From the NCBI GenBank assembly GCA_029260825.1, contig JAJDCM010000139.1, forward strand, positions 1 to 46,834: DNA of 46,834 bases, written 5' to 3'. This DNA comes from Planctomycetota bacterium (GTDB taxonomy: Bacteria; Planctomycetota; JACOTG01; JAJDCM01). Position numbers and translations under genes: made by a program. The notes below the pieces were generated by a model. It made no database searches. It was not told where the DNA came from and worked only from the letters and a program-made list of their open reading frames with translations. Below, in pieces: positions 1,695 through 38,271 of the stretch. How positions within the stretch are numbered: the stretch's first letter is position 1; each line of letters begins with the position of its first letter.

Positions 1695-3035
1695 TCAGAA
1701 ATCCAGACGGCGCCGAAATTGCCAGGCAACAAGGCACAGGCTCACCACCGCCTGAGTCCCCACGGAAAAGATGGATAGATACCAGACTTGCTCGAGTTCA
1801 AAATCCGGTCGTCCGGATAACCACAGCGCTGGCCCCACGAACGTTACCAGCCGAGTGGACGTGCTGAGCAAAGAGGGCCAGGTGTTTCCCATGCCCTGAA
1901 AAGTGGCAGAACAGGTAAAGGACAGACCGTTGGCAACGAAGTTCAGCGATACGATGCGCATGAACTCCGAAGCAACGCGAAGGACTTCAGCATCGCTGCT
2001 AAAAGGCGAGACAAGCAGATCCGGGCGAAGCTGACAGAAAACCGTGACCGAGAGCATGATGCCAACGTTCATCATGGCAATCGTTCGGAATGTTCCCCGA
2101 ACACGGGAAGCGAGCTTTGCCCCGAAGTTCTGCCCGATGATTGCGGGTGCAGCAAAGGCCACGGCCATCGCGGGAAGAAACACCGCGGTCATCACCCGCG
2201 CACCCGCCCCAAACCCCGCCTGCGCCGAGGTGCCAAAGTCACTGATGACGCCGTAGATGACAGCCATATAGGTGAATAACAGCACAAATTCGCCTCCAGC
2301 CGGCAAACCGATACCAAGCAGTCGGCGAAGGATATCGAACCGGGGAAGCCATGCGCGAAAATCAAAGGCGACGTAGCGCTCAAGCCGATAGAAATAGAGG
2401 CCCATCATCACTATGCCCGCAAAAGCGGCAATCGCACTCCCAAGGGCAGCACCGGCAACTCCCAGCGGGCGACCCGTCCCCCAGCCGGCCACGAGGATCG
2501 GAGTAAGAATGATGTTCACAAGAACGGTGACCATCTGGACGATCATCCCCGGCTTCACGATCCCCGTCCCTTGTAACGCCGCATTCATGGCGACGATGGC
2601 AAACTGCATTGCCATGGCAGGGATGAACCAAAAAAGGTAACTGGATCCGGAAGCGATCGTCTCCTCATCCCCACAGACAGCTTCGAGATAGCGATCTCCA
2701 AGGCCAAAGATACCGGCAAAAAGAGTGGAGAGACCGAGAAACCCGGCAAGAGCCGCCGCCTGATTAAAGACCAGGTTTGCTTCTTTTTGATCCTCTCGAC
2801 CGACCGCATGGGAAACGAGAGCGATGGTGCCAACACTCAGAGTCTGAGTCAGCCCCATGACCATGAACATGATGTTGCCACCGGCGCTCACCCCGGCGAG
2901 GGCCGCACCACCCAGCCGGGAGACGAAGTAGAGATCCACCATATAATAGGCAGTCTGAACCAGCATCCCGACCGCGATCGGGACCGCCATGGCGACGATA
3001 TGCCCGGGGAGCGGCCCCTTGGTCAAATCTCTCAT
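1695..3035 (-). CDS. MATE family multidrug/organic cation antiporter
   Basis: This 446-residue protein has about 12 hydrophobic segments and the length typical of MATE (multidrug and toxic compound extrusion) transporters in the inner membrane. They export drugs or metabolites in exchange for Na+ or H+. Family-like features are the N-terminal PIAVGMLVQTAYYMVDLYFV segment, the repeat-related GLPAGGEFVLLFTYMAVIYG at mid-protein, and FGAKLASRVRGT after it. The NorM-like, MepA and DinF subfamilies cannot be told apart by eye, so the substrate is unknown. It lies 57 bp downstream of the putative selenoprotein gene on the same strand and may share its transcript, though a tandem duplication sits in the gap. 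The ATG at 3035 has only a weak upstream GAGCAGG. Confidence 0.9.
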   Translation of the reverse strand: MRDLTKGPLPGHIVAMAVPIAVGMLVQTAYYMVDLYFVSRLGGAALAGVSAGGNIMFMVMGLTQTLSVGTIALVSHAVGREDQKEANLVFNQAAALAGFLGLSTLFAGIFGLGDRYLEAVCGDEETIASGSSYLFWFIPAMAMQFAIVAMNAALQGTGIVKPGMIVQMVTVLVNIILTPILVAGWGTGRPLGVAGAALGSAIAAFAGIVMMGLYFYRLERYVAFDFRAWLPRFDILRRLLGIGLPAGGEFVLLFTYMAVIYGVISDFGTSAQAGFGAGARVMTAVFLPAMAVAFAAPAIIGQNFGAKLASRVRGTFRTIAMMNVGIMLSVTVFCQLRPDLLVSPFSSDAEVLRVASEFMRIVSLNFVANGLSFTCSATFQGMGNTWPSLLSTSTRLVTFVGPALWLSGRPDFELEQVWYLSIFSVGTQAVVSLCLVAWQFRRRLDF

Positions 3036-3063
3036 CCTGCTCAGAATCCTCGATTCCCTGGGG

Positions 3064-3105
3064 TCACACCACTAGCTTCCCGAATCACACAACTAGCTTC
3101 CCGAG
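3064..3105. repeat. 21-bp tandem duplication at the 3' end of the thioredoxin-like gene
   Basis: Units 3064-3084 and 3085-3105 are identical except at two positions. The unit carries the gene's last codons and its TAG stop, so the duplication gives a second in-frame TAG 21 bp downstream of the first. It looks like a replication-slippage product and does not alter the encoded protein. Confidence 0.85.
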
Positions 3106-4064
3106 GCAATTTGTTGCCGAAGCATCTGCACTGCCATCTTCACGTTGTTCGCGAGCTCCGAATCTTCGAACGTCAATCCCTCGAGTCTCTTGATCGCAAG
3201 CTCTACAATTCGCAAATCCTTTCGGGACACGGCATCCTCAGCCATCAGATACCAGAACGTCCCTGCCTCCGTGGACGCGGGCCTGGCACCTGTTGCAAAA
3301 AGCTTGTCATATCGAGCGATCGCGTCTTCGAGGCTCAAAGTTTTCGAGACATAGGAGCCAAAGATCTCGGCATAAGACGCCCGATCGATGTATTGCGTGA
3401 GCAGGGCCCGTCGGTCTTGGTCGAGCCCAGCAAAGTTTGCGAGGCGCTTTCGCCCCTCGTCAGGCGAGAAGTGACGGAGGTCAAGTCGCAACTCAAGAAG
3501 ATCCGCCCCCGAGGAAAGATCCCCGTTCTTGAAACGCCTCTCGAGTACGGCAAGGTGGGCTTGCACCTCTTTCGCCTTCTCTAGAGTGGATTTGAATCCA
3601 TCAACACTATTCTTTCCCGCGTGGGGAGCAAGTAGCCGTCCCTGTTCATCGAGAATCGCGATGTAGGGAAGGCTGTAACCTTTTTTTTCGAGAATCATTC
3701 CCTGAAGAGAATCCCCTTTAACTTTGGAAATGACATTGCAGTAAAGAGTCACGGATTTGCCGAACTCGGCAAATGGGTCCTGGAAGAGCACGCTCTTCTC
3801 GAGGGCCAAGCAGGGAGGTCACGGCTCGTAGCTGCGAGTGAAGTAAGCAAAGACGAGCTTGCCGTCTGCTTTTGCCCTGGATCGAGCCTCGTCATAATCC
3901 ACTAGCCACGATGCCCTCTTCAGAAACTCGGAGCTCAGCTTTTTCTGCTGCCGGACGACAAGCTCCTCTTGATCCTCTTGATCCTGGGCAAAACCGGGTG
4001 CAGCGAAGGCTAGTCCGAGAATCCAGACCATTCCCCACGGGACAAGCCTGATCAACTTTTCCAT
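3093..4064 (-). CDS. Putative thioredoxin-like selenoprotein (UPPC active site, in-frame TGA)
   Basis: Read through the TGA at 3821-3819, this is one 323-residue protein. An ordinary caller would split it into a short N-terminal frame and a TTG-started C-terminal frame; the two are in the same phase, only three sense codons apart. The ATG at 4064 follows AGAGGAGAG at good spacing and a TATAAT at 4110-4105. Residues 1-26 form a signal peptide (VWILGLAFAAPGFA), so the protein acts outside the cytoplasm. A thioredoxin fold starts at about 60 (KLVFAYFTRSYEP), then U82-P83-P84-C85, then the cis-proline region YSLPYIAIL with Pro133. The TGA replaces the first cysteine of CPPC, the classic selenocysteine position. 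About 150 C-terminal helical residues are unrecognised. Alternatives are a nonsense-mutated pseudogene or a sequencing error. Both halves look intact and a SECIS-like hairpin follows, which favours selenocysteine. TGA ends other genes here, so the genetic code is standard. Confidence 0.8.
3776..3821 (-). promoter_or_regulatory. Candidate bacterial SECIS element (UGA plus downstream stem-loop)
   Basis: Numbering from the U of UGA (3821), nucleotides 24-29 (GAAGAG) pair with 34-39 (CUCUUC) around the four-base loop CGUG. Below a 3/1 internal loop, nucleotides 18-20 pair with 41-43, and 15-16 pair with 45-46. The apical loop starts 27 nt after the UGA, with G as its second base followed by U. 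Known bacterial SECIS elements place a mini-hairpin about 16-37 nt after UGA, with a G in the first two loop positions; in E. coli fdhF the loop GU contacts SelB. The fit is by eye, with no computed energy. Confidence 0.6.
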
Positions 4065-4104
4065 GCTTCTCTCCTCTGATTCCAGTCGGGGGCATTCAGG
4101 CATC

Positions 4105-4110
4105 ATTATA
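4105..4110 (-). promoter_or_regulatory. -10 element (TATAAT) for the selenoprotein gene
   Basis: A perfect TATAAT on the minus strand lies 40 bp upstream of the ATG at 4064, which would give a leader of about 34 nt. No good -35 hexamer sits 16-18 bp upstream of it, so an activator may be needed or the match may be chance. Confidence 0.4.
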
Positions 4111-4192
4111 AGCACGCCTGGCGATAGATCCGGTGGTGGGTTCAAAGAGAATCTGCCCGATTTTCACGGAAGGCGTCATAACCCCCGATATT

Positions 4193-4212
4193 TGTGCTAG
4201 AATTTTAGCACA
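4193..4212. promoter_or_regulatory. Inverted repeat TGTGCTA-N6-TAGCACA, possible operator
   Basis: A perfect 7-bp dyad with a 6-bp spacer lies in the divergent intergenic region between the selenoprotein gene (minus) and the alpha/beta hydrolase gene (plus). The geometry fits a dimeric repressor site. It contains TAGAAT, which could be a -10 for the plus-strand gene. The regulator is unknown. Confidence 0.45.
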
Positions 4213-4256
4213 CAATCGCCTGGACTCCGCAAGACACAACCCCAACAAGGCCACCA

Positions 4257-5771
4257 ATGATGACTCGAAAACTTCTCTTTTCTGCCATGACTCTGGTCTT
4301 GCTGCAAGTGAGCTCGTTGTGCGCCAGCGAGCCTGATCTTTCAGGATCCTGGGCCGGAGGTTTTGGAGTTCTCGACGGATCAGCGCCTCGATGGAGCTAC
4401 GTCCACCTGAAACTCACCCATGTTGGCAAGAAGCTCCGAGGACAAATCCGAGCTGACCATGCAGACAATGAGTTCACGGGTTCCCTCAGGGGAAGCAAGA
4501 TCGAAGGCAGCTTTCGAAGCAGCCGACGACGCGTTCGTTTCAGCGGCCACTTGTCGGAGAATGGAACCACCGTCACGGGCGTGGCGAAATACGATCGTCA
4601 TTCTGAACCGTTTCGATGGGATCGACTGCATATCGCCAGGGAAGCACCCGACTATGAGGGCTTCTACGATGGAGAAGATCATCGCCTGCTGATCCGCACT
4701 TCCTCCTATCCCGGCCAGCTCATTGCTGAGGACCTGACGTCAGGAGATATCCGACTCCTCGTGTGTCAGGACCACGGGCATTACACGGCGGGTCCGACGT
4801 TTCTTTCAACTCATCCAGTAACCGCCACTTTCAATTTCGAAGTCGGGCAAGACGGAAAGACATCCCTCCAGAGGGAGACGAAGGGGGAAAAAATCATTCT
4901 GAATCGGCGGGAGGTCTTTGTGAGCGAAGACTACAGTTATCGAGCCCCGGACGGCATCGAAATGAAGGGGACACTTTTCTTGCCGGCCTCCCAGGGAGCC
5001 GGTCCTAACCCGGCGATCGTGTGGGTACATGGTTCAGGAAAAGCAAAGCGTCGAGGATCCGGTAGTTGGCCCTATATTTTCGCCGAAGCCGGGTTCGCCT
5101 GCCTGGCTCTCGATAAGAGAGGGGTTGGCGAATCCGGGGGCACCTACGAAATGCCCGATGGCGGTCACGACAACCCGCCCCACATGGCACGCCGCGCCAA
5201 GGATGTTCGAGCCGCCGTTCAATCTCTGGCGAAGCGGGAAGAAATTGATGGAAAGAGCATTGGCCTCATGGGTGGTAGCCAGGCTGGATGGGTAATTCCT
5301 CAGGCGGCAAATGACAGCTCTGTTCGGTTCGCCATCCTCCTCTCCGCCGGAACGACTGCTTTCGTCTACGAGGGGCTCTACAGTGATTGGGCCAAAGAAA
5401 TGGAATCCGGCCCGGACGCTCCGCCCATTGAAAAGCTCATCGAGCGGCTCCGGAAGAAGCGTCCAAAGGATCCCAAGAAACGCCCACTTGGCATTCGAGA
5501 ACACCTGGTGGCGATGGCATGCCCAGGGATCTGGTTCTATGGATTGAAGGATCGAAGTAATCCGAGCCAGATCTGTATTGACCTCCTCGAGGAGATCAAG
5601 CGAGATGAAGAAAAGGACTTCACCGTGGTTTCCTTTCCAGGCGCCAATCACGGTCTCCTCGAATGCCGGTTCGGTGGTGCCGCAGAGACGGGGGCACTCG
5701 AACGGAAGGTCCAAGGGATTCCGGAGAGAATCTTTGCCTGGCTACGGGAAAGAGGCATCGGAGGAACCTAG
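4257..5771 (+). CDS. Secreted alpha/beta hydrolase (dienelactone hydrolase/acyl-peptidase-like)
   Basis: This 504-residue protein starts with a signal peptide (MMTRKLLFSAMTLVLLQVSSLCA), so it is exported. Residues about 25-130 form a beta-rich module (SGSWAGGFGVLDG, KLRGQIRADHADNEFTGSL) resembling the lipocalin-like domains seen before some bacterial hydrolases. The alpha/beta hydrolase domain starts near residue 235 (SYRAPDGIEMKGTLFLPA). It has the oxyanion segment IVWVHGSGK, the nucleophile elbow GGSQAGW (Ser), a likely acid in FYGLKDRSNP, and the His in GANHGL. This is a complete Ser-Asp-His triad. The substrate is unknown; esters or small peptides are typical for this family. The ATG at 4257 directly precedes the signal peptide. 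Confidence 0.87.
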   Translation: MMTRKLLFSAMTLVLLQVSSLCASEPDLSGSWAGGFGVLDGSAPRWSYVHLKLTHVGKKLRGQIRADHADNEFTGSLRGSKIEGSFRSSRRRVRFSGHLSENGTTVTGVAKYDRHSEPFRWDRLHIAREAPDYEGFYDGEDHRLLIRTSSYPGQLIAEDLTSGDIRLLVCQDHGHYTAGPTFLSTHPVTATFNFEVGQDGKTSLQRETKGEKIILNRREVFVSEDYSYRAPDGIEMKGTLFLPASQGAGPNPAIVWVHGSGKAKRRGSGSWPYIFAEAGFACLALDKRGVGESGGTYEMPDGGHDNPPHMARRAKDVRAAVQSLAKREEIDGKSIGLMGGSQAGWVIPQAANDSSVRFAILLSAGTTAFVYEGLYSDWAKEMESGPDAPPIEKLIERLRKKRPKDPKKRPLGIREHLVAMACPGIWFYGLKDRSNPSQICIDLLEEIKRDEEKDFTVVSFPGANHGLLECRFGGAAETGALERKVQGIPERIFAWLRERGIGGT

Positions 5772-35697: not shown

Positions 35698-38271
35698 GTG
35701 GGTCAGAAAAAAAAGAAAAAAGCAGTCGAGAGCCACTCGCCGGCTCCCACCACCCCAGGTTCCGCCCCCCGTTCAAAAGTGGGGCCCCTGATCATCCTTC
35801 TGGTGCTCGCCGCGGGAGCAATCGTCCCCCTCGCAATCTACCTGTCGAAAGAATCGGCTCCGACCTCCCCTTCGGTCCTGATCATCAGCGTCGACACACT
35901 GCGACCCGACCACCTTTCGTGTTACGGCTACCCTCGCAACACCTCCCCCCGACTCGATGAGTTTGCGGAAAAAGCGATGCTCTTCGAAAATGTGGTGACG
36001 CCCCGCCCAAAAACGGCACCAAGCCTGATCAGCATGCTTACCGGCTATTATCCTCACACTCACGGCATTCGCACGAACTTCAAACCCCTCCCGGGAGTGG
36101 AACTACGGGTCGATCCAGAGAAACTCTTTCGCCCCGAGTCAACCGGACCGGGAACACTAGCCGAGCTTCTTTCCGGTAAGGGTTATTCCACCGCCGCGTT
36201 CGTCTCAAATTTTGTTCTCACCCGGGAACGATCCGGCCTGCAGAGGGGGTTTGACCTCTTTGATGATGACCTCCCCTCCTCCGAAAGAAATCGATCCAAC
36301 ATCAAGGAACGAAAAGCCACCGCGACCACAGACCGAGCAAGCGCGTGGCTTGAAACCAACCGGAAAAACCCGTTCTTTCTCTGGGTGCACTACATCGACC
36401 CTCACGGATCCTATGATCCACCGGCTGAGCACCTCCGCGCCATTCAAAACGAAACGACCCCTCCCCTTTCTGCCGCCATTCCAAGACGAGTCCCGCTGAA
36501 AGCAGCCGACAAGAGAGTGGTGATTCGAGACGACAAGGGATTTCGGTCGTTCGTGGCCCTGCACAATCTTTTGCCGTCCCTCAAGAATCCGACGAATGAT
36601 ACCCAAACCTACGTGGATCATTACGACAGCGAGATCCACTACATGGACCAGGAAGTCGGAAGACTCCTGGGTAAGCTTTCGGACTTGAACCTCTCCGAAA
36701 ACACCCTCGTCATTTTTACCGCGGACCACGGAGAAAGCCTGGGCGAGCATTCCCTCTTCTTCGAACACGGCTACTACATTTACGAAGCAAGCTCCTGGAT
36801 TCCACTCGTCATCTCGGATCCTCGAACCACCACCGAAGACGGCCAGAGAGTCAAGGAACAGGTCGACATTCTCGATGTTTACCCCACCATTGTTGACTGG
36901 CTAGGAGTCGAAGGGCCACCCGACCTTGCCGGACAAAGCCTCCTCCCGATTCTCGGTGGAAAGCCAGCTCCTGAAGATCGAATCTCCTACATTGAAAAAG
37001 CAGAGTACACCTTCAATATCCGGGCCGTGCGGACCGAGGGATACAAGCTGATCTACAACTTCGAAGTCCCGCCGTCATGGCCCATGCCCGCAACACGCGA
37101 ACTCTACGATCTTTCCATCGACCCCGACGAGCAGGAAAACATCTACGACAGAAAAGACCCCCGGATTGCCCTGCGCCGCACCCAGCTGGATAAACTCCTC
37201 ATGGACTGGGTTCGGTCCACCGGAGAACTGCGCTCGTTCGCCGGCGAGGATCAATCCGCCATTGACAACCTCCCTCAGTCGGCGAAGGATCAACTCGAAG
37301 CCATGGGTTACCTTGACCCGGGTGCGAATCTGGCTCAAACAACCGCCGTCTCACCGGACGCCGGCTTTGCAAGCAACACCCCTCCAGACACGGACGATCC
37401 CGAGGAGATCCTCCTCTGGGCACTCACCGATCGACCGGAACTTCGATCCCTTGCTCTCCACGGACTCGCTCGTGGCGGGAAGCTCTCCACTGCGGAACTT
37501 TCCCTCTACATCGCCCCCGCACACCCCTCCGTGGTCCGCTGCGCGGCGGTTGAGCTTCTGGGAGAAATCGGCGGGTCCGACGCAATCCAGGTGATTGAAC
37601 AGGCCCTTTCGAGCCATCGCGAAGCGGGAGGTGGAGCTGCATTTTCTCTCTCCTGCGCCTATGCCCTCCGGCAGCTTTCCGTGAAAACCGAAGACAAAGA
37701 AATCACCCGGTCCCTTTCCCACTGGAATGCCGCCATTCGAGCTAGCGCTGCCTGGAAGGTGGGAAACTTGAAAGCGGATGAATTCAAGACCGAGCTCACC
37801 ACACTGACAAAAGACCCTCAGGGGGAAGTCAGGGTCATGGCCCTTCGCTCTCTTGGGCTTCTTGGAGATGACACCGCAGTCGAAAGACTTCAAGAGATCT
37901 TGAGAGAGAGCATTCGTATCAAAGTCGACCAGCTCATCGACCCGATGACCGCATGTGCCAGCATTCTTGCCATCACGGAAGTCGGAGGAAGCGATGCTCT
38001 TCGCTCGATCGTCCCGGAGATCGCAAACAAGAAGAGCAACCTCCTGCAGTATGCGCTGTATGAGGCAGGGGCATTCACGAACGATCAGAGCGCGGAGGCC
38101 ATCTTTGATCAGCTCCCCAAACTCGCTACGACATCGAAGCGGCGCCTCCTGAACGTGGCGGCCCTCAGGCTCGGGAAGAAGGCAGTGTCGTCCTTGAAAC
38201 CGGTCCTCAAGGATACCGACCCGGACACTCGGGTGATCGCCGCGGTCCACCTTCTCGGCCTCTCAAACTGA
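35698..38271 (+). CDS. Membrane sulfatase-fold protein fused to HEAT-like repeats
   Basis: 857 residues from GTG 35698, 7 nt after GAGGA. One transmembrane helix (about 28-50) anchors a periplasmic alkaline-phosphatase-superfamily domain: LIISVDTLRPDHLSCYGY with metal Asp66, KTAPSLISMLTG with Thr106 at the nucleophile place (no sulfatase Cys), LWVHYIDPHGSYDPP, and IFTADHGESLGEH. The domain ends near 530 with YDLSIDPDEQENIYD and DQLEAMGYL. Residues about 580-857 form repeated helical pairs resembling HEAT/PBS repeats (RSLALHGLARGGKLS, RCAAVELLGEIGGSDAIQVI, VRVMALRSLGLLGDDTAVER), probably a protein-binding scaffold. The catalytic-scaffold fusion is unusual. The substrate is unknown. Its last 9 bp overlap the convergent epimerase gene. 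Confidence 0.86.
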   Translation: MGQKKKKKAVESHSPAPTTPGSAPRSKVGPLIILLVLAAGAIVPLAIYLSKESAPTSPSVLIISVDTLRPDHLSCYGYPRNTSPRLDEFAEKAMLFENVVTPRPKTAPSLISMLTGYYPHTHGIRTNFKPLPGVELRVDPEKLFRPESTGPGTLAELLSGKGYSTAAFVSNFVLTRERSGLQRGFDLFDDDLPSSERNRSNIKERKATATTDRASAWLETNRKNPFFLWVHYIDPHGSYDPPAEHLRAIQNETTPPLSAAIPRRVPLKAADKRVVIRDDKGFRSFVALHNLLPSLKNPTNDTQTYVDHYDSEIHYMDQEVGRLLGKLSDLNLSENTLVIFTADHGESLGEHSLFFEHGYYIYEASSWIPLVISDPRTTTEDGQRVKEQVDILDVYPTIVDWLGVEGPPDLAGQSLLPILGGKPAPEDRISYIEKAEYTFNIRAVRTEGYKLIYNFEVPPSWPMPATRELYDLSIDPDEQENIYDRKDPRIALRRTQLDKLLMDWVRSTGELRSFAGEDQSAIDNLPQSAKDQLEAMGYLDPGANLAQTTAVSPDAGFASNTPPDTDDPEEILLWALTDRPELRSLALHGLARGGKLSTAELSLYIAPAHPSVVRCAAVELLGEIGGSDAIQVIEQALSSHREAGGGAAFSLSCAYALRQLSVKTEDKEITRSLSHWNAAIRASAAWKVGNLKADEFKTELTTLTKDPQGEVRVMALRSLGLLGDDTAVERLQEILRESIRIKVDQLIDPMTACASILAITEVGGSDALRSIVPEIANKKSNLLQYALYEAGAFTNDQSAEAIFDQLPKLATTSKRRLLNVAALRLGKKAVSSLKPVLKDTDPDTRVIAAVHLLGLSN

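Follow-up and report, generated by a model that had tools for sequence, protein, structure and literature searches.

The DNA under study (hereafter the window) is a stretch of 46,834 nucleotides from a Planctomycetota bacterium. Two minus-strand frames in the same phase had been noticed in it, separated by a TGA at 3821-3819 and three codons, and both the coordinates and the count were reproduced: the frame opens with ATG at 4064-4062, meets the TGA and ends with TAG at 3095-3093, and the TTG start of the downstream mechanical ORF (3809-3093, 238 amino acids) is separated from the TGA by just three sense codons, CCT CCC TGC. Translated with TGA as U, the whole frame yields 323 residues and gives back the U-P-P-C motif that had been placed in a thioredoxin fold, with FAYFTRSYEP before U82-PPC and SLPYIAIL further on. 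The downstream part, described as intact for about 240 codons, is indeed open; the precise figure is 241 residues from TGA to TAG without any other stop, or 238 when counted from the TTG. The AGAGGAG sequence ahead of the ATG agrees with the good ribosome site reported in the initial annotation, and the cleavage rule for signal peptides was applied to residues 1-27. A promoter scan of positions 2900-4400 gave none, and two terminator-like sites were found on the other strand. An imperfect 21-base tandem repeat (GGGAAGCTAGTTGTGTGATTC / GGGAAGCTAGTGGTGTGACCC; window 3061-3102, minus strand) stretches across the TAG stop of the gene.

Table 1. Features of the locus, with their positions in the window and the basis of each assignment.
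Feature	Position	Strand	Basis or remark
MATE-family transporter	1695..3035	-	next downstream gene, same strand; context
Predicted selenoprotein gene	3093..4064	-	323 codons + TAG stop, single in-frame TGA; homologues support
All-helical C-terminal domain, ~residues 154-320, no Pfam match	3105..3605	-	AlphaFold2, Foldseek, Pfam
Thioredoxin-fold domain, ~residues 50-150, U82-P-P-C85, cis-Pro position 133	3615..3917	-	PF13899 below cut-off, AlphaFold2, Foldseek, A1 invariant columns
SECIS-like hairpin GAAGAG-CGUG-CUCUUC	3783..3798	-	6-bp stem; 26 nt from UGA to loop
TGA codon 82, inferred selenocysteine	3819..3821	-	aligned codons of homologues
Signal-peptide-like N-terminus, ~residues 1-27 (..PGFAQD)	3984..4064	-	sequence; low pLDDT in model
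RBS-like AGAGGAG	4071..4077	-	6 nt ahead of ATG; read from sequence

The codon usage of the part following the TGA, compared with that of the other long ORFs of the window, scored +0.27 bits per codon in-frame and -0.27 and -0.32 in the other two forward frames, while one antisense frame reached +0.21. A paralogue from the same genome (L048) is alike on both sides of the TGA, with 30 identities in 74 aligned residues before it and 96 in 235 after it. Window positions 3093-4064 (minus strand) are confirmed as one gene. Since TGA ends 18 of the 34 long ORFs of the window (at least 150 codons, picked for little overlap) and is their commonest stop, the code is normal and TGA is not reassigned. 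An 857-codon ORF (35698-38271, plus strand) also ends with a TGA (38269-38271), after which 340 more residues are read up to the next in-frame stop; as its context (SNUVLS) contains no recognised redox motif and the opposite strand carries an overlapping mechanical ORF, this open extension is probably due to chance.

Homologues of the window protein were matched at E ≤ 0.001 in 59 of the 149 whole genomes around that of the window. A profile of 50 members (A1), written with Cys at the Sec site and carrying no bias to TGA, was then used on 392 genomes of the phylum, the best five or fewer candidates of each genome being fully scored, so that paralogues may be missed. At E ≤ 1e-5 it found 273 of the 392, many by weak matches, and at E ≤ 1e-30 it defined 81 core genomes, some with several copies. 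By hand count, 125 of the 133 matches at E ≤ 1e-29 contain at least one in-frame TGA; among the eight others, one (G252:C376:4230) does not span the active site. In codon-by-codon DNA alignment the TGA of the relatives falls at the codon of U82. Close relatives do not show the pattern of random stops and frameshifts that decay would leave: apart from that single TGA the frames are mostly intact, and 50 of the 56 rows of the tree have the TGA at the homologous codon. The six other rows comprise three Cys, the Cys homologues that had been sought, and one each of Leu, Tyr and Ser. The tree takes 56 of 67 rows, the 11 left out being three fragments with U (L038, L075 and L077) and eight matches that were weaker (E > 1e-9), four with U and four with Cys. 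Distant thioredoxin-like matches are often without TGA, and Thioredoxin_7-like relatives often have Cys (most of the distant sequences were not fetched); the dominance of Sec therefore belongs to the closer relatives.

The DNA pattern YF[TS]RSYxxUxPC, which favours TGA by design, was matched by at least 115 stretches in named genomes. Among the matches listed, 114 of 117 were family members by profile; L120, L174 and L207 matched by chance and were rejected. An earlier type of scan, with peptide patterns derived from the single protein, matched 246 stretches and none encoding a relative, probably because these peptides are not conserved. Titles were available for 80 of the 115 listed matches and, leaving aside L131, L169 and L177, every true member in this set was assigned to Planctomycetota wherever a phylum was given. 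L169 (named Proteobacteria) and L177 (Bacillota) come from public MAGs in which the places of selA are equal to those of two genomes of the window's phylum, G176 and G212, and these MAGs look like mislabelled Planctomycetota. L131 comes from a Gemmatimonadota MAG and is likely misbinned, since the member lies on a 3-kb contig, no selA was found in the MAG and four other genomes of that phylum gave no match at E ≤ 1e-8. Relatives are common in the phylum, which we infer to be Planctomycetota, and the family is likely restricted to it, five genomes outside the phylum having been profiled.

On the sampled tree, a scenario with Sec as the ancestral state requires six changes from Sec, three to Cys and three to residues expected to abolish thiol catalysis. 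Because this tree has no root, its non-Sec rows occur one by one in scattered places and equally many changes are required after shuffling of the labels, ancestral Sec is to be taken as a proposal. A wider one, in which Sec would be ancestral and normal, Cys rare and derived, and the proteins a large family of secreted 'seleno-chaperedoxins' of Planctomycetota, often with several copies per genome, is tentative and on balance doubtful. Tandem copies were seen at L051, L054, L056 and L059. The genome of the window itself contains a paralogue (L048:1517-2479, G000:C354), about 40% identical over its length and sister of the window gene in the tree, in which Leu (TTG) stands for Sec (SYESLAHC) and the resolving Cys is retained, as in a catalytically altered copy. 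One may speculate that such copies lacking U and keeping C85 (Leu in L048, Tyr in L056, Ser in L060) are regulators or holdases. More distant thioredoxin-like frames with an aligned TGA were also encountered (L055:1101-2042, L074, L076 and L082, with YADWUGPC, WFKGUGGC, TKTYUPHC and TAPPUPPC, respectively) and possibly represent further planctomycete selenoprotein families.

The initial annotation had made its reading depend on the presence of selB and tRNA-Sec, and the source genome (8.37 Mb, 425 contigs, 90% complete, 4.9% contaminated) was found to possess the whole set: selA (E 9e-164, contig C135), a tRNA-Sec with anticodon TCA (71.5 bits) about 100 bases after selA, selB (E 3e-111, above its cut-off) and selD (E 1e-110). 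A second Rfam match to tRNA-Sec above cut-off (C166) was identified by ARAGORN as tRNA-Ser, so one tRNA-Sec was counted. By gene content, this genome is predicted to be able to make selenocysteine. Its SelD gene (L015:1501-2436, G000:C142) has an in-frame TGA (CAGUAGK) and is predicted to encode a selenoprotein too; the sequence fits UxxK, the motif given for SelD in Table 1 of PMC13188914.

Within the phylum, selA was detected in 245 of the 392 genomes at E ≤ 1e-40, 238 of them above cut-off. It is present in 74 of the 81 core genomes vs 164 of the 311 others (odds ratio 9.5, p = 1.6e-11); when seven weak selA matches that had been set aside by eye, none from a core genome, are counted in, the others rise to 171 of 311 (odds ratio 8.7, p = 1.7e-10), and both p values are too small because related genomes are not independent. 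The core genomes without selA (G022, G163, G172, G211, G213, G263 and G331) are all MAGs of at least 290 contigs, six of them less than 90% complete and G263 91%.

The RNA just 3' of the UGA was analysed for a SECIS-like element. Rfam at gathering score found two tRNAs over the window and nothing at the selenoprotein gene. The hairpin of the window gene is not significant alone: an equally long one occurs in 29% of synonymous codings (P = 0.29), its folding z is -0.60 and it lies 3 nt off the family register. The SECIS claim consequently rests on the family and not on the window sequence. Over 132 Sec members, the mean folding z of the first 48 nt past the TGA is -1.13; three comparison stretches taken from these genes give -0.08, -0.09 and -0.26 (p 1e-9 to 5e-13). 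In the common stem, positions 20-27 base-pair with 31-38 (T of TGA = 0) and enclose a short loop, usually G-first and often GU; a small apical loop with G is a feature of bacterial SECIS elements according to the available text of PMC1088965, and the family-level hairpin has it.

As this stem lies inside the LE-x-G-x-LS stretch, the constraint due to the protein had to be removed, and synonymous codons were shuffled across the 126 distinct rows, each time between rows carrying an identical residue. The observed stem pairing was 82%, vs 77% in 500 shuffles (maximum 78.5%), and at least seven of the eight pairs were formed in 70 rows, vs 52 on average and 64 at most in the shuffles. The third positions 26 and 32 share 0.73 bits of mutual information vs 0.055 (sd 0.023), the highest value among third-position pairs and one attained in none of 300 shuffles; the value of pair 20-38 was reached in one of 300 shuffles and that of 23-35 in none, and pairs 24-34 and 25-33 were uninformative. 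The off-stem pairs 26-50 (0.43 bits) and 32-50 (0.39) are also above the shuffle values for stem pairs, hence common ancestry inflates the covariation signal, and the exact stem varies, as a register slid by -2 pairs nearly equally well (81%). In the six non-Sec homologues the best stems are shorter (3-6 pairs), whereas six pairs or fewer are found in 18 of the 132 Sec members (p = 4e-5); two of the six still fold well (L048, z -2.42; L056, z -1.58). These results support a SECIS-like hairpin just 3' of the UGA as a feature of the family.

The fold of the protein was predicted with AlphaFold2 on the alignment A2 (76 sequences), with a mean pLDDT of 91.2 and a pTM of 0.84. The model consists of a helix (23-43), a thioredoxin fold and eight helices up to residue 320. 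PF13899 (Thioredoxin_7) gave E 1.5e-4 on the window protein, its 22.3 bits lying below the gathering cut-off of 27, and was matched at E ≤ 0.01 by 48 of the 50 members. The columns invariant in A1 are A60, Y74, F75, C85, E89, P133 and G142, those of A2 being partly imposed by the search pattern. Foldseek returned, with modest scores, YbbN/CnoX, a Bacteroides cytochrome-biogenesis domain, DsbH and DsbD-gamma; viral proteins yielded generic thioredoxins, with one match at E ≤ 0.001. The C-terminal domain modelled alone (A3) reached a pLDDT of 94.4 and had no match in the PDB at E ≤ 0.001; the corresponding part of the window protein gave none in Pfam up to a limit of E 10.

Among known families, the thioredoxin-like disulfide reductase DsbH (NF043050; PDB 2ju5, presumably from Chlamydia) is close to this one: its model is matched by 44 of the 50 members at E ≤ 0.01 (best 5e-10) and among PDB sequences it is the one to which the family profile matches best (E 2e-10). 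However, the window protein scores 22 bits where the DsbH cut-off is 190, the 166 positions of NF043050 are too short to include the helical C-terminal domain, and we take DsbH to have Cys, not Sec. The C-terminal (gamma) domain of DsbD, which sequence and fold comparisons with solved structures both picked up, has the thioredoxin fold in common but is part of a membrane electron-transfer protein, whereas ours is a protein by itself and carries a helical domain. The Trx7/PDZ domain-containing (seleno)protein NF041199, a Thioredoxin_7-type selenoprotein, is weakly matched in 19 of the 50 members; the window protein obtains 14.4 bits vs a cut-off of 300 and no PDZ match, and its motif is UxxC, not CxxU as given in PMC13188914. 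The GOS class 'Trx-like 3' of 2008 also contains thioredoxin-like UxxC selenoproteins (212 Sec and 183 Cys sequences). It is defined in the table of PMC2398784 only by a weak cd02950 match and could be compared by description only, so this broad metagenome class may overlap the present family. No NCBIfam model was matched above cut-off by the window protein, the best E-values in the 50 members being 5e-10 (DsbH) and 4e-8 (TsoB).

As far as the available text of the 2026 inventory (PMC13188914) goes, the descriptions of its 119 families/subfamilies include no exported thioredoxin protein that combines UxPC with a helical tail, and broad entries such as 'thiol-disulfide isomerase-like protein' may include ours. 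The accessible parts of the literature searched, including PMC12013277, PMC9312934, PMC4807772, PMC1088965 and PMC8129009, with supplementary tables outside the comparison, hold nothing on the family; selenoproteins in two planctomycetes are reported in PMC4807772. The earlier description of the protein as undescribed stands within these papers and models and is not proven as regards GOS 'Trx-like 3' and the supplementary tables. The data support a bacterial selenoprotein of a probable new family, which is not assigned to DsbH, Thioredoxin_7, Trx7/PDZ or CnoX.

The gene neighbourhood was also explored. The four scanned neighbours of the window gene encode a MATE transporter, an alpha/beta-hydrolase, a radical SAM protein and an FGE-sulfatase-domain protein, and no MATE transporter was seen among the recurrent neighbour clusters printed. 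A conserved operon partner was sought in 167 loci and none was found, the largest cluster covering 14 of them. Two neighbours, both named by sequence reading, are clade-limited: an arginase-like gene that follows immediately downstream, in the same orientation, at 11 loci belonging to one clade (L065, L066, L067, L143, L158, L160, L169, L190, L204, L228 and L229) and an ECF-sigma-like gene upstream in eight loci of another. Because this search gave no conserved partner gene, the functional reading is drawn from the fold and the motif.

Thiol-disulfide enzymes have the arrangement seen here, UxPC plus a conserved cis-Pro, which together with the predicted export points to such an enzyme outside the cytoplasm. 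The gene would very probably encode an exported thioredoxin-fold selenoprotein, belonging to an undescribed and mostly Sec-containing family of Planctomycetota, that works after secretion as a thiol-disulfide oxidoreductase dependent on Sec and is probably a reductase. The proposal of an exported selenoprotein oxidoreductase is supported by the computational results, namely the Sec machinery, the TGA at the homologous codon and the role of TGA as a normal stop elsewhere in the window. Selenolates have a low potential, and this property and the nearness to DsbH and DsbD would favour a reductase or isomerase; taken alone, the reductase direction is somewhat more probable than the reverse. In the proposed mechanism, Sec-tRNA(Sec) would be brought to codon 82 by SelB bound to the hairpin just past the UGA. 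In the finished protein, U82 would attack substrate disulfides or oxidised thiols outside the cytoplasm with its selenolate as nucleophile, and C85 would resolve the Se-S bond. Electrons would probably arrive via the DsbD-like membrane protein of the genome (E 4e-32), and the helical C-terminal domain may hold the substrate or a partner.

Other explanations were weighed against this secreted oxidoreductase. The selenoprotein could act mainly as an exported chaperedoxin, its helical domain holding unfolded proteins and its UPPC protecting or repairing oxidised cysteines, as CnoX does in the cytoplasm; CnoX, as described in the accessible part of PMC8129009, works with GroEL and has SxxC in E. 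coli. A thioredoxin domain followed by a helical one is common to both, and E. coli YbbN/CnoX (thioredoxin + TPR) was the first Foldseek PDB match by E-value, but with a TM-score of only 0.25-0.28. The window protein differs in having UxPC and a signal-peptide-like start. The C-terminal model remains without PDB match at the threshold given above, and TPR_14 appeared at an unconvincing E of 0.16 in one of four C-terminal parts; this reading is judged unlikely. More improbable still is a selenoprotein whose main targets are, in place of protein disulfides, small oxidants or metals (peroxide, selenite, arsenic or mercury compounds): the UxPC motif and the cis-Pro column of A1 have the thiol-disulfide layout and the four neighbours listed above speak against it, although several selenoprotein families in Table 1 of PMC13188914 are linked to such chemistry by name.

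Decoding of the UGA as another residue (e.g. Trp or Cys), or leaky readthrough, would account for the open frame without selenium; this is very improbable in a genome with full Sec machinery and a family that co-occurs with selA, has Cys as its commonest replacement (three of the six non-Sec rows) and carries a hairpin at SECIS distance, TGA being normally a stop in the window. Equally improbable is a pseudogene or ordinary truncation, in which the TGA, as the commonest stop, would be a true one followed by a decayed frame or by a separate gene started at the TTG four codons past it, since divergent relatives have the TGA at the same codon, the 241 following residues contain no further stop and keep in-frame codon usage, and a TTG start would sever the thioredoxin fold just after the active site.

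The Sargasso Sea selenoprotein study demanded at least two Cys homologues (PMC1088965), and the deep-Sep paper states, in its available part, that selenoproteins without Cys homologues may go unidentified (PMC12013277). Because searches leaned on Cys homologues in this way, a family with few close Cys forms could escape them and be annotated as broken fragments. The present family would be such a case: sizeable, apparently overlooked, Sec-predominant and of a familiar chemical kind. With core members in 81 of the 392 sampled genomes of one phylum, the use of selenium by environmental planctomycetes is probably underestimated. The family makes it testable why some enzymes keep Sec and seldom revert to Cys, its Cys, Leu, Ser and Tyr relatives being natural comparison points for the retention of Sec.
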